From: Chrysopilus asiliformis
Taxonomy: Eukaryota > Arthropoda > Insecta > Diptera > Rhagionidae
Reading direction: 5' to 3'
DNA: 64,000 bases
NCBI GenBank assembly: GCA_964034945.1
Contig: OZ035961.1
Location: forward strand, 76,820,188-76,884,187
Below the pieces are notes generated by a model, which saw only the letters and a program-made list of their open reading frames with translations, did no database searches and was not told where the DNA came from. The position numbers and the translations under genes are program-made. This document shows positions 43,901 through 55,900 of the stretch, in pieces (within the stretch, counting starts at the first letter, position 1; each line of letters begins with the position of its first letter).

Positions 43901-46900
43901 GCGGACCGCTCCTTCCCATACTCCCACACAAATGGGTTTTTTAAATAAAAATTTTGCATCTAGCAATTGTAGCTCTTTTTATATTTTTTAATCATTTCAG
44001 ATAGTTTGCAGCACCATAATGTGCCCAGTGGCCAGAAGGAGATAATTGGATTGGGCTCTGTTAAAAAGGTGAATCGCAGATTACAAACAAATCCCGTCTG
44101 CTTGTGTCGAAATTCCCAAGTTTGTTGTCCTGGAGTAGAGTTTGCCTCGAATATGCAAAGTAATTCGAATTTTCAAAATGTTTTTATACCCGTATGGTGA
44201 AACCAAAGGGTTATTAACTTTGCCTTACCGTATGTAACGCCAAGATCCCGTCATCACACACAAAAATGAATTACACCAGTGTGTTTAGAATGATAAAAAT
44301 AATTAATTTTTGCATGTCCGTCCATCCGTCCGTCTGTCCGTCCGTCTGTCCATCTGTCCGTCTGTCCGTTCGTCTGTCCGTCTGTGGCGCGGATTGCGGA
44401 CGCACGGATTGAGCTAGAGACTTGAAATTTTGCGCAGATCCGTTTTTCGTAAAACGTGAGGCTAAGTTCGTTCATGGGCAAAAATGGATACGAACGAAAG
44501 CGTTTTTTTGCGAATATCTCAAAAACGGTGCATCTTATCAAAAAAGTCCAAGAACAAAAGTTATTTAGGATATGATTCTACATAAAACTCCCATACATCA
44601 AAATCCGATTGGAAAAAATTTTAAAGAATCTTATTGGAAAATTTGATTTCAAAGTGGAATTTTGATACAACTGTTCGGTGGAGTGAAGCCAGCACGGATG
44701 GTTTCATCACGGATGGGAATTCACCTCACTCGTGGTTTGCGTCTCTACTATGACGTTTCTAATTTCACCACACTGATTTTCCTACCACAGCAGCGAAACT
44801 GAACCTTATGTCGACCAAATAAGTCACAAACTTTATATAAATTTTTCCATATGAATATTTTCAAATTTGAGCGCCTAATAAAATCAAAATAACTTTCATT
44901 TATTGAAAAAATTGATTTTTTTTCGAATTTTCGGAAAATCTAAAAGGTTACCCCTCTAGATTTTTGTCTCCCCTTTCAAAATATGTATATGGGTTTGGAA
45001 AAATATTTTCTGGTGTGGGAGAAATCGCGCGCTGAAGGTACTCCCAAGTCCCATCACGGATGGGAAAAAAGCCATCACGGATGGGAAAACAATGGAAAAA
45101 CTTGATTTTTTTGGATTTTTTTGAAAATCCAAAAGGTTACCCCTCTAGATTTTTGTCTCCCCTTTCTAAATATGTATATGGGTTTGGAAAAATATTTTCT
45201 GGTGTGGGAGAAATCGCGCGCTGAAGGTACTCCCAAGTGCCATCACAAATGGGAAAAAATTCAAAAAAAAAATTGATTTTTTTTTTTGAATTTTTTGAAA
45301 ATCCAAAAGGTTACCCCTCTAGATTTTTGTCTCCCCTTTCAAAATATCTATATGGTTTTGGAAAAATATTTTCTGGTGTGGGAGATATCGCGCGCAGAAG
45401 TTCCATCACGGATGGGAAAAAAGCCATCACGGATGGGAAAACAATGGAAAAAAATTGATTTTTTTTTGAATTTTCGGAAAATCTAAAAGGTTACCCCTCT
45501 AGATTTTTGTCTCCCCTTTCTAAATATGTATATGGGTTTGGAAAAATATTTTCTGGTGTGGGAGAAATCGCGCGCTGAAGGTACTCCCAAGTGCCATCAC
45601 AAATGGGAAAAAATTCAAAAAAAAAAATTGATTTTTTTTTTGAATTTTTTGAAAATCCAAAAGGTTACCCCTCTAGATTTTTGTCTCCCCTTTCAAAATA
45701 TCTATATGGTTTTGGAAAAATATTTTCTGGTGTGGGAGATATCGCGCGCAGAAGTTCCATCACGGATGGGAAAAAAGCCATCACGGATGGGAAAACAATG
45801 GAAAAAAATTGATTTTTTTTCGAATTTTCGGAAAATCTAAAAGGTTACCCCTCTAGATTTTTGTCTCCCCTTTCAAAATATGTATATGGGTTTGGAAAAA
45901 TATTTTCTGGTGTGGGAGAAATCGCGCGCTGAAGGTACTCCCAAGTCCCATCACGGATGGGAAAAAAGCCATCACGGATGGGAAAACAATGGAAAAACTT
46001 GATTTTTTTGGATTTTTTTGAAAATCCAAAAGGTTACCCCTCTAGATTTTTGTCTCCCCTTTCTAAATATGTATATGGGTTTGGAAAAATATTTTCTGGT
46101 GTGGGAGAAATCGCGCGCTGAAGGTACTCCCAAATGCCATCACAAATGGGAAAAAATTCAAAAAAAAAATTGATTTTTTTTTTTGAATTTTTTGAAAATC
46201 CAAAAGGTTACCCCTCTAGATTTTTGTCTCCCCTTTCAAAATATCTATATGGTTTTGGAAAAATATTTTCTGGTGTGGGAGATATCGCGCGCAGAAGTTC
46301 CATCACGGATGGGAAAAAAGCCATCACGGATGGGAAAACAATGGAAAAAAATTGATTTTTTTTCGAATTTTCGGAAAATCTAAAAGGTTACCCCTCTAGA
46401 TTTTTGTCTCCCCTTTCAAAATATGTATATGGGTTTGGAAAAATATTTTCTGGTGTGGGAGAAATCGCGCGCTGAAGGTACTCCCAAGTCCCATCACGGA
46501 TGGGAAAAAAGCCATCACGGATGGGAAAACAATGGAAAAACTTGATTTTTTTGGATTTTTTTGAAAATCCAAAAGGTTACCCCTCTAGATTTTTGTCTCC
46601 CCTTTCTAAATATGTATATGGGTTTGGAAAAATATTTTCTGGTGTGGGAGAAATCGCGCACTGAAGGTACTCCCAAGTGCCATCACAAATGGGAAAAAAT
46701 TCAAAAAAAAAATTGATTTTTTTTTTTGAATTTTTTGAAAATCCAAAAGGTTACCCCTCTAGATTTTTGTCTCCCCTTTCAAAATATCTATATGGTTTTG
46801 GAAAAATATTTTCTGGTGTGGGAGATATCGCGCGCAGAAGTCCCATCACGGATGGGAAAAAAGCCATCACGGATGGGAAAACAATGGAAAAAATTGATTT

Positions 46901-52900: not shown

Positions 52901-55900
52901 CCAAACCCATATACATATTTAGAAAGGGGAGACAAAAATCTAGAGGGGTAACCTTTTGGATTTTCAAAAAAATCCAAAAAAATCAAGTTTTTCCATTGTT
53001 TTCCCATCCGTGATGGCTTTTTTCCCATCCGTGATGGGACTTCTGCGCGCGATATCTCCCACACCAGAAAATATTCTTCCAAAACCATATAGATATTTTG
53101 AAAGGGGAGACAAAAATCTAGAGGGGTAACCTTTTGGATTTTCAAAAAATTCAAAAAAAAATCAATTTTTTTCCATTGTTTTCCCATCCGTGATGGCTTT
53201 TTTCCCATCCGTGATGGGACTTCTGCGCGCGATATCTCCCACACCAGAAAATATTTTTCCAAAACCATATAGATATTTTGAAAGGGGAGACAAAAATCTA
53301 GAGGGGTAACCTTTTAGATTTTCCGAAAATTCGAAAAAAAATCAATTTTTTTCCATTGTTTTCCCATCCGTGATGGCTTTTTTCCCATCCGTGATGGGAC
53401 TTCTGCGCGCGATATCTCCCACACCAGAAAATATTCTTCCAAAACCATATAGATATTTTGAAAGGGGAGACAAAAATCTAGAGGGGTAACCTTTTGGATT
53501 TTCAAAAAAATCCAAAAAAATCAAGTTTTTCCATTGTTTTCCCATCCGTGATGGCTTTTTTCCCATCCGTGATGGGACTTGGGAGTACCTTCAGCGCGCG
53601 ATTTCTCCCACACCAGAAAATATTTTTCCAAACCCATATACATATTTGGAAAGGGGAGACAAAAATCTAGAGGGGTAACCTTTTAGATTTTCCGAAAATT
53701 CGAAAAAAAATCAATTTTTTTCCATTGTTTTCCCATCCGTGATGGCTTTTTTCCCATCCGTGATGGGACTTCTGCGCGCGATATCTCCCACACCAGAAAA
53801 TATTTTTCCAAAACCATATAGATATTTTGAAAGGGGAGACAAAAATCTAGAGGGGTAACCTTTTGGATTTTCAAAAAATTCAAAAAAATCAAGTTTTTCC
53901 ATTGTTTTCCCATCCGTGATGGCTTTTTTCCCATCCGTGATGGGACTTGGGAGTACCTTCAGCGCGCGATTTCTCCCACACCAGAAAATATTTTTCCAAA
54001 CCCATATACATATTTAGAAAGAAGAGACAAAAATCTAGAGGGGTAACCTTTTGGATTTTCAAAAAAATCCAAAAAAATCAAGTTTTTCCATTGTTTTCCC
54101 ATCCGTGATGGCTTTTTTCCCATCCGTGATGGGACTTGGGAGTACCTTCAGCGCGCGATTTCTCCCACACCAGAAAATATTTTTCCAAACCCATATACAT
54201 ATTTAGAAAGGGGAGACAAAAATCTAGAGGGGTAACCTTTTGGATTTTCAAAAAAATCCAAAAAAATCAAGTTTTTCCATTGTTTTCCCATCCGTGATGG
54301 CTTTTTTCCCATCCGTGATGGGACTTCTGCGCGCGATATCTCCCACACCAGAAAATATTCTTCCAAAACCATATAGATATTTTGAAAGGGGAGACAAAAA
54401 TCTAGAGGGGTAACCTTTTAGATTTTCCGAAAATTCGAAAAAAAATCAATTTTTTTCCATTGTTTTCCCATCCGTGATGGCTTTTTTCCCATCCGTGATG
54501 GGACTTCTGCGCGCGATATCTCCCACACCAGAAAATATTCTTCCAAAACCATATAGATATTTTGAAAGGGGAGACAAAAATCTAGAGGGGTAACCTTTTG
54601 GATTTTCAAAAAAATCCAAAAAAATCAAGTTTTTCCATTGTTTTCCCATCCGTGATGGCTTTTTTCCCATCCGTGATGGGACTTGGGAGTACCTTCAGCG
54701 CGCGATTTCTCCCACACCAGAAAATATTTTTCCAAACCCATATACATATTTGGAAAGGGGAGACAAAAATCTAGAGGGGTAACCTTTTAGATTTTCCGAA
54801 AATTCGAAAAAAAATCAATTTTTTTCCATTGTTTTCCCATCCGTGATGGCTTTTTTCCCATCCGTGATGGGACTTCTGCGCGCGATATCTCCCACACCAG
54901 AAAATATTTTTCCAAAACCATATAGATATTTAGAAAGGGGAGACAAAAATCTAGAGGGGTAACCTTTTGGATTTTCAAAAAATTCAAAAAAAATCAAGTT
55001 TTTCCATTGTTTTCCCATCCGTGATGGCTTTTTTCCCATCCGTGATGGGACTTGGGAGTACCTTCAGCGCGCGATTTCTCCCACACCAGAAAATATTTTT
55101 CCAAACCCATATACATATTTAGAAAGGGGAGACAAAAATCTAGAGGGGTAACCTTTTGGATTTTCAAAAAAATCCAAAAAAATCAAGTTTTTCCATTGTT
55201 TTCCCATCCGTGATGGCTTTTTTCCCATCCGTGATGGGACTTGGGAGTACCTTCAGCGCGCGATTTCTCCCACACCAGAAAATATTTTTCCAAACCCATA
55301 TACATATTTGGAAAGGGGAGACAAAAATCTAGAGGGGTAACCTTTTAGATTTTCCGAAAATTCGAAAAAAAATCAATTTTTTTCCATTGTTTTCCCATCC
55401 GTGATGGCTTTTTTCCCATCCGTGATGGGACTTCTGCGCGCGATATCTCCCACACCAGAAAATATTCTTCCAAAACCATATAGATATTTTGAAAGGGGAG
55501 ACAAAAATCTAGAGGGGTAACCTTTTGGATTTTCCGAAAATTCGAAAAAAAATCAATTTTTTCAATAAATGAAAGTTATTTTGATTTTATTAGGCGCTCA
55601 AATTTGAAAATATTCATATGGAAAAATTTATATAAAGTTTGTGACTTATTTGGTCGACATAAGGTTCAGTTTCGCTGCTGTGGTAGGAAAATCAGTGTGG
55701 TGAAATTAGAAACGTCATAGTAGAGACGCAAACCACGAGTGAGGTGAATTCCCATCCGTGATGAAACCATCCGTGCTGGCTTCACTCCACCCAACTGTTC
55801 GCCGTTCACTTAAATCACCATACGGGTTGTCAATAATTGCCAGATTGGCAATTATAGCTTTTGTTATGTTTTTATTTAAAAGTGTGTTTTATCCGCCTTT

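Follow-up and report, generated by a model that had tools for sequence, protein, structure and literature searches.

A foldback transposon with higher-order tandem arms in a hippo-like gene of Chrysopilus asiliformis and its probable Rehavkus/Mutator affinity

We analysed a stretch of 64,000 nucleotides from the fly Chrysopilus asiliformis (assembly GCA_964034945.1, contig OZ035961.1, forward-strand positions 76,820,188 to 76,884,187; the window hereafter), in which an 11,115-bp palindromic element lies in a hippo-like gene. With a probability of roughly 0.8, this element is a non-autonomous foldback DNA transposon and belongs to a small family that has moved recently and is served by a transposase of the Rehavkus/Mutator type. 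Its ends, the 9-bp duplications, the empty sites, the family of copies, the anatomy of the arms and a relic with the same end were observed directly in the assembly. Judged from its sequence features, the family probably belongs to the Rehavkus/Mutator lineage, and it joins two known kinds of element, as it consists of foldback derivatives with ends that are associated with a Rehavkus-like transposase.

Ends, insertion site and arms of the element

The following features make up the element and its immediate surroundings (positions are those of the window).

44677..55791, no strand: whole foldback element, 11,115 bp
44668..44676, plus strand: left target-site duplication, CAACTGTTC
55792..55800, plus strand: right target-site duplication, CAACTGTTC
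44677..44904, plus strand: left terminal domain, 228 bp, identical to the right one
55564..55791, minus strand: right terminal domain, 228 bp
44905..49032, plus strand: left tandem array, 21 monomer starts, types A189, B174, C180 and D346
51366..55563, minus strand: right tandem array, 23 monomer starts, chiefly of types A189, C180 and E178
49033..49986, plus strand: inner single-copy section of the left arm, 947 of 953 aligned bases the same as in the right arm
50411..51365, minus strand: inner single-copy section of the right arm
49987..50410, no strand: unpaired spacer, 424 bp
47242..47450, plus strand: extra copy of a 209-bp inner block in the left arm (other left-arm copies at 47956-48164 and 49033-49241)
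44316..44667, plus strand: left part of the interrupted dispersed host repeat, with its (TGTC)n head
55801..55874, plus strand: right part of the interrupted host repeat
17048..17309, minus strand: paralogous site without the insert, CAACTGTTC present once; the joined flanks, used as query, match it at 93.9% identity

The initial annotation had described exact inverted ends, a 9-bp direct duplication and a spacer of about 440 bp. Ends, duplication and spacer position agreed to the base, with the spacer measuring 424 bp. The outer 264 bp are exactly mirrored at the two ends and base 265 is the first mismatch. Further inside, 48666-49986 and 50411-51731 form the longest ungapped inverted pair, with agreement at 1311 of 1319 aligned bases. 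The tip hairpin folded no better than shuffled sequences (z -0.44).

The flanks of the element are the two halves of one dispersed repeat with a (TGTC)n head. This repeat, roughly 400-460 bp long, was observed in the window at 10.9, 11.9, 17.1 (minus strand), 19.6, 44.3/55.8 and 61.1 kb. The five copies other than the split one are uninterrupted at the insertion point; two of them carry exactly one CAACTGTTC, two carry TAACTGTTC and one is more diverged. The split repeat together with its uninterrupted paralogues, all within the window, proves that the element was inserted, and the five empty paralogous sites exclude an origin in place by inverted duplication. As a separate observation, the inner arms of the element include a segment that resembles 100 bp of this host repeat at about 77-80% identity.

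The arms are built from units of 174-191 bp, to which two units of 346 bp are added in the left arm. Starting at the tip, the monomers follow one another as A B C B C A B C A B C A D C A D A B C A in the left array and as C A A C A C E A F C A C C E F C G E C E C A in the right one. A higher-order repeat A-B-C of 543 bp partly orders the left arm, so that the satellite-like higher-order arms proposed in the initial annotation were found, with 21 and 23 monomer starts and an ordering that is partial. Monomers recur identically within arms and between them. The three left-arm copies of the 209-bp block are identical to each other and differ by 2 bases from the single right-arm copy, a pattern which indicates that the block probably multiplied after the arms had diverged. 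Unequal exchange or slippage of monomer blocks would account for these patterns.

A Pfam scan of the longest frames of the element revealed no coding capacity. The longest stop-to-stop frame wholly inside it has 149 aa, and neither five of the long frames, all situated in the arrays, nor a 101-aa frame of the middle gave a Pfam match above the cut-off (best E 0.064). Across the window, Rfam at the gathering threshold and ARAGORN with the bacterial code returned no match.

A dispersed family with the same ends

Copies were sought in the whole assembly (429,065,045 bases in 42 contigs) with a 25-base tip pattern, allowing up to 3 mismatches, and a control pattern. The tip pattern matched 14 times genome-wide and the control pattern never, so the further copies of the ends anticipated in the initial annotation do exist. 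The 14 tips belong to six two-ended copies, one single arm (C2:10605222) and one single end (C1:84730138). The element in the window is the sixth two-ended copy; the other five are as follows.

C2:36474031-36486260: two-ended copy, 12,230 bp
C1:58610203-58615498: two-ended copy, 5,296 bp
C1:76860289-76866867: two-ended copy, 6,579 bp
C3:58250351-58256597: two-ended copy, 6,247 bp
C3:60049374-60054929: two-ended copy, 5,556 bp, with nested foreign repeats

A longer query alone detected an additional fragment of 106 bp at C3:25.8 Mb. Exact patterns gave 0 matches in other sequence sets, namely the tip and the monomer core in viral_contigs and the monomer doublet in genome_contigs, a set that possibly does not include the genome of the window.

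The same-ended copies are dispersed at unrelated sites and their flanks differ. Four of the six two-ended copies have exact 9-bp duplications, each of a different sequence (CAACTGTTC, AACCGAACT, GATTTAAAT and ACTACAAAC). The window element, the C2:36.47-Mb copy and the C2:10.6-Mb single arm share the same 228-bp terminal domain base for base, and 938 of 941 bases of the inner arms are identical between the first two. These near-identical ends and inner arms speak for recent movement of the family. The spacers of the same two copies are more different (406 of 422 aligned bases agree, with 4 gaps) and the two therefore need not be parent and child.

Tandem arrays are present in all six two-ended copies. 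The longest arm, in the C2:36.47-Mb copy, has 42 monomer starts, mostly repeats of the 543-bp A B C unit, and its opposite arm only 10; the C3:60.05-Mb copy has just 2 and 1. Free satellite arrays of the window-element monomers were not found among the matches listed in two genome searches, the counts of which are lower bounds. In the C3:60.05-Mb copy (about 2475-5850 of locus sequence L015), we also observed that the right arm is largely replaced by a tandem repeat of the GTAAGGATAACGGAAGGTCC type and that the spacer contains a nested stretch carrying a copy of the (TGTC)n repeat.

Could the palindrome be no transposon at all, but an inverted segmental duplication of satellite DNA or a mirror artefact of the assembly? 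One sibling copy is indeed embedded in a larger palindrome (C1:58609680-58616021), with 523 bp of mirrored flank on either side and no duplication; it looks as if one flank had been copied onto the other after insertion. The empty paralogous sites refute such an origin, four exact 9-bp duplications of different sequence argue against it too, and the arms are unlike in the order and number of their monomers. The chance that no transposon is involved is thus close to negligible. The mirror artefact in particular is ruled out, since monomer order and number differ between arms and between copies, and siblings have other flanks.

Binding word, coding relatives and lineage

Both tips of the element carry a doubled short word which we presume to be bound by the transposase.

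44690..44716, plus strand: terminal doublet of the presumed binding word (CAGCACGGATGG, CATCACGGATGG), starts 15 bp apart
55752..55778, minus strand: the same presumed-binding doublet at the right tip

The 12-bp word CATCACGGATGG, or a form one or two changes off, occurs twice at all 14 tips, starting 13 and 28 bases in, and the doublet is kept even at a tip with 17 differences in 228 bp. Within the arms, the dyad CCATCACGGATGG (CCATC-ACG-GATGG) was found in 37 of the 42 monomers of the window element, 35 of them holding two copies. The longest word common to the terminal domain and the monomer has 15 bases, a length equalled in 2 of 2000 shuffles. The 11-bp core, with at most one mismatch, occurs 78 times in the element and not once in the remaining 52,885 bases of the window; 36 and 47 motif places were counted in the two element halves. 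The dyad pair of a monomer folds strongly (z -4.59), as expected of two dyads facing each other. By analogy with Galileo, the 12-bp word is likely a transposase-binding site.

The single end at C1:84730138 belongs to a coding relic. This end is 93% identical to that of the family (17 differences in 228) and is followed by one monomer and then by an open reading frame (ORF) on the opposite strand. The ORF matches Peptidase_C48, an Ulp1-type domain (Pfam, E 2.7e-13), as well as SENP1 chains (E 1.4e-4), and has a cysteine-rich, PHD-like tail. The relic is interrupted by other elements. We do not claim it as an ancestral one-monomer state: its ORF departs from homology within the finger, at the start of the monomer, so an array may have been deleted there.

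A genome search with the relic ORF identified an uninterrupted frame of 1282 aa at C4:10591640-10595485, 43% identical over the shared part. Among the other matches listed, C2:79.5 Mb holds a partial frame, C4:29.6, C4:20.83 and C4:32.1 Mb hold decayed ones, and the remaining ones are monomers read through. Pieces of the relic, broken by stops and frameshifts, can be aligned to stretches of the 1282-aa protein within residues 469-1260. This protein contains the words CIDST (458), CTDKS (558), CNVH (605) and TNNNAE (777), the peptidase words HWVLA (1089) and NCGIF (1160), and four Cys pairs from 1213 on. By eye, four Cys pairs with W-x-C suggest a PHD-like finger in the 1282-aa relative and at C4:20.83 Mb. 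Tandem arrays of 166 bp adjoin the 1282-aa ORF (C4:10596114-10597400 and from C4:10601250), with one unit inverted. The C4:20.83-Mb locus has a C48/finger fragment flanked by relatives of the family's ends (score 51; mean 18.8 and maximum 41 in 300 shuffles), the left tip having a doubled word of other sequence at a similar place and the right tip one such word. Together with the relic, this locus links Ulp1/finger coding to this type of end at two loci. C4:29.6 Mb was examined as a second coding copy, and no duplication was seen by eye at its inverted repeat. Proteins of the relatives gave no Pfam match to a FLYWCH finger or a MULE domain, although a diverged domain could escape detection, nor to THAP. 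No relatives of the relic protein were confirmed in viral contigs. The autonomous relative suggested by the initial annotation was therefore encountered in part, as a single-ended relic with the same end and a decayed transposase, and not as an intact transposase between the ends.

Several published systems resemble the family. Rehavkus elements, reported from arthropods and annelids with Repbase as their only source, are described as making 9-bp target-site duplications and as having terminal inverted repeats of 26-400 bp, a minisatellite ahead of the 3' repeat and a PHD finger (available parts of PMC6446971); they are placed as an outgroup or sister of Mutator elements. In Tribolium, the inverted termini of the 9.5-kb Rehavkus-1_TC contain a satellite with a 164-bp unit, mostly as five and eight monomers (PMC10218199, in part). 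We noticed no mention of an Ulp1 domain in Rehavkus proteins in the available parts of these sources. The family described here shares the 9-bp duplications, a minisatellite adjoining the terminal repeat (also as one monomer in the coding relic) and perhaps a finger of the PHD type, here PHD-like by eye and in the transposase of relatives. Compared with Rehavkus-1_TC, the satellite unit is mostly 174-191 bp instead of 164 bp, and the window element is without transposase, has 21 and 23 monomer starts and shows a higher-order arrangement of them.

The closest foldback anatomy is that of Tetris of Drosophila virilis (TIR-220), a non-autonomous element with a flanking domain, tandem repeats of about 220 bp, an inner domain and a middle, which makes duplications of 8-10 bp, has a stretch common to terminus and tandem repeat, and changes its repeat number by what is attributed to unequal exchange; its transposase is reported as unknown (PMC4079207, in part). 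We adopt the same model of arm growth. Tetris arms reach up to 1.7 kb, whereas those of the window element exceed 5 kb. Our initial annotation had offered a Foldback/MULE transposon or a new family, of which the foldback/MULE type stands, with features that point to the Rehavkus lineage next to Mutator more than to a wholly new family. In the parts of the open-licence PubMed Central literature that were available, among them passages of PMC8504770, PMC13359780 and PMC4438587, no prior description of this element or of higher-order foldback arms was found.

Two other assignments have to be weighed. The element could be a foldback of another Mutator branch, of Phantom/FB-NOF type, with the Ulp1/finger coding as a chance neighbour. 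The relic, single-ended and broken by other elements, would leave room for this, and 9-bp duplications and repeat-rich arms also occur in Mutator foldbacks such as Tm1 of root-knot nematodes, a Mutator/Foldback element of the Phantom subclass with composite tandem-repeat inverted termini (PMC3169594, in part). Tm1 differs by its tandem units of 13-15 bp and its Phantom-like transposase. We consider this branch improbable: the relic has this coding immediately inward of its end, related ends flank such a fragment on both sides at the second locus, and a finger with a minisatellite is a published mark of Rehavkus (PMC6446971, in part).

A foldback of the P superfamily, like Galileo, appears far less probable still. 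Galileo shares foldback-like arms with tandem repeats, and P/Galileo elements make duplications of 7-8 bp and have a THAP transposase. Here, four clean duplications are 9 bp long, and the proteins linked to related ends match C48 and not THAP. In favor of Galileo, its inverted repeats are long and repetitive within, and they contain several binding sites of the transposase, one footprinted about 70 bp from the end and more in the tandem repeats (PMC3688188, in part).

Several observations nevertheless weigh against service by a Rehavkus/Mutator-type transposase. The likeness to Rehavkus is one of features given in published descriptions, and membership is no more than probable. The relic is the sole non-foldback tip found; it is decayed, the first 468 residues of the 1282-aa protein have no counterpart in it, and its second end was not found in the 19.7 kb examined. 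No intact transposase was found between the family's own ends. We tentatively read D458, D559, CNVH and TNNNAE of the 1282-aa protein, by eye, as the motif pattern of a MULE-type DDE core; Pfam gave only C48 above the cut-off for this protein, and neither MULE nor PHD. The 166-bp array beside it does not match the monomers of the window element, and the search used detected no dyad in it. No duplication was found for the C4:20.83-Mb relative. Most of the 14 tips are near-identical and are not independent witnesses for the doublet, and five left-arm B monomers have no exact dyad, each having one altered copy. Two of the two-ended copies lack a clean duplication: besides the C1:58.61-Mb copy with its mirrored flanks, that at C3:60.05 Mb has only a 7-bp match, TGAATCT, next to a damaged tip.

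If the family is indeed served in this way, a transposase made elsewhere, with a DDE core, an Ulp1-like protease and a PHD-like finger, would act in trans. It would recognise the tip doublet and the arm dyad CCATCACGGATGG, pair the two arms, excise the element and insert it with a 9-bp staggered cut. The arms would lengthen and diverge by unequal exchange or replication slippage, in steps of single monomers and of the 543-bp A-B-C unit. More monomers would offer more binding sites, which may favor the capture of a scarce transposase. That the family is a parasite of such a scarce Rehavkus-type transposase, competing by means of arms turned into higher-order satellites of binding dyads, is a tentative and rather doubtful extension.

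Host gene and meaning of the family

The hippo-like exons around the element all lie on the minus strand.

59755..59886, minus strand: hippo-like exon, N-terminal part of the kinase
59377..59517, minus strand: hippo-like exon
57680..57830, minus strand: hippo-like exon directly upstream of the invaded intron, edges approximate
43519..43661, minus strand: hippo-like exon directly downstream of the invaded intron, edges approximate

A further MST/hippo-kinase-like piece follows at about 43.46-43.2 kb, minus strand, and 43085-43459 gave a Pfam kinase match. We presume the gene to be hippo from its similarity to a human STK4 sequence. These minus-strand pieces on both sides support, at the level of sequence similarity, a position of the element within an intron of a hippo-like gene, as the initial annotation had put it. 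The invaded intron measures about 14 kb, of which the element makes up about 11.1 kb. Elsewhere in the window, two adjoining ORFs at 26152-27266 (minus strand), one with a DDE_Tnp_4 domain (E 1.7e-19), are perhaps a broken PIF/Harbinger-type transposase, and two short tandem arrays adjoin each other at 4761-5422 (128 bp x 2.4 and 164 bp x 2.0).

The identical terminal domains suggest that transposition, and so the insertion into the hippo-like intron, was recent. What distinguishes this family is the size of the arms and their higher-order arrangement. Published models leave a gap here, since Tetris has satellite-like arms without a known transposase and Rehavkus is described from Repbase entries only, as far as the available parts of these sources go. 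One assembly of Chrysopilus asiliformis combines copies with expanded arms, a coding relic with the same end and a related transposase frame that is uninterrupted, which makes the model of foldback arm growth by collection of binding sites directly testable. Should the arms indeed compete for a scarce transposase, the 36 and 47 motif places of the window element and the 42 monomer starts in one sibling arm would fit such competition, and the family would exemplify a centromere-like evolution of higher-order repeats inside a mobile element, driven by transposase capture.

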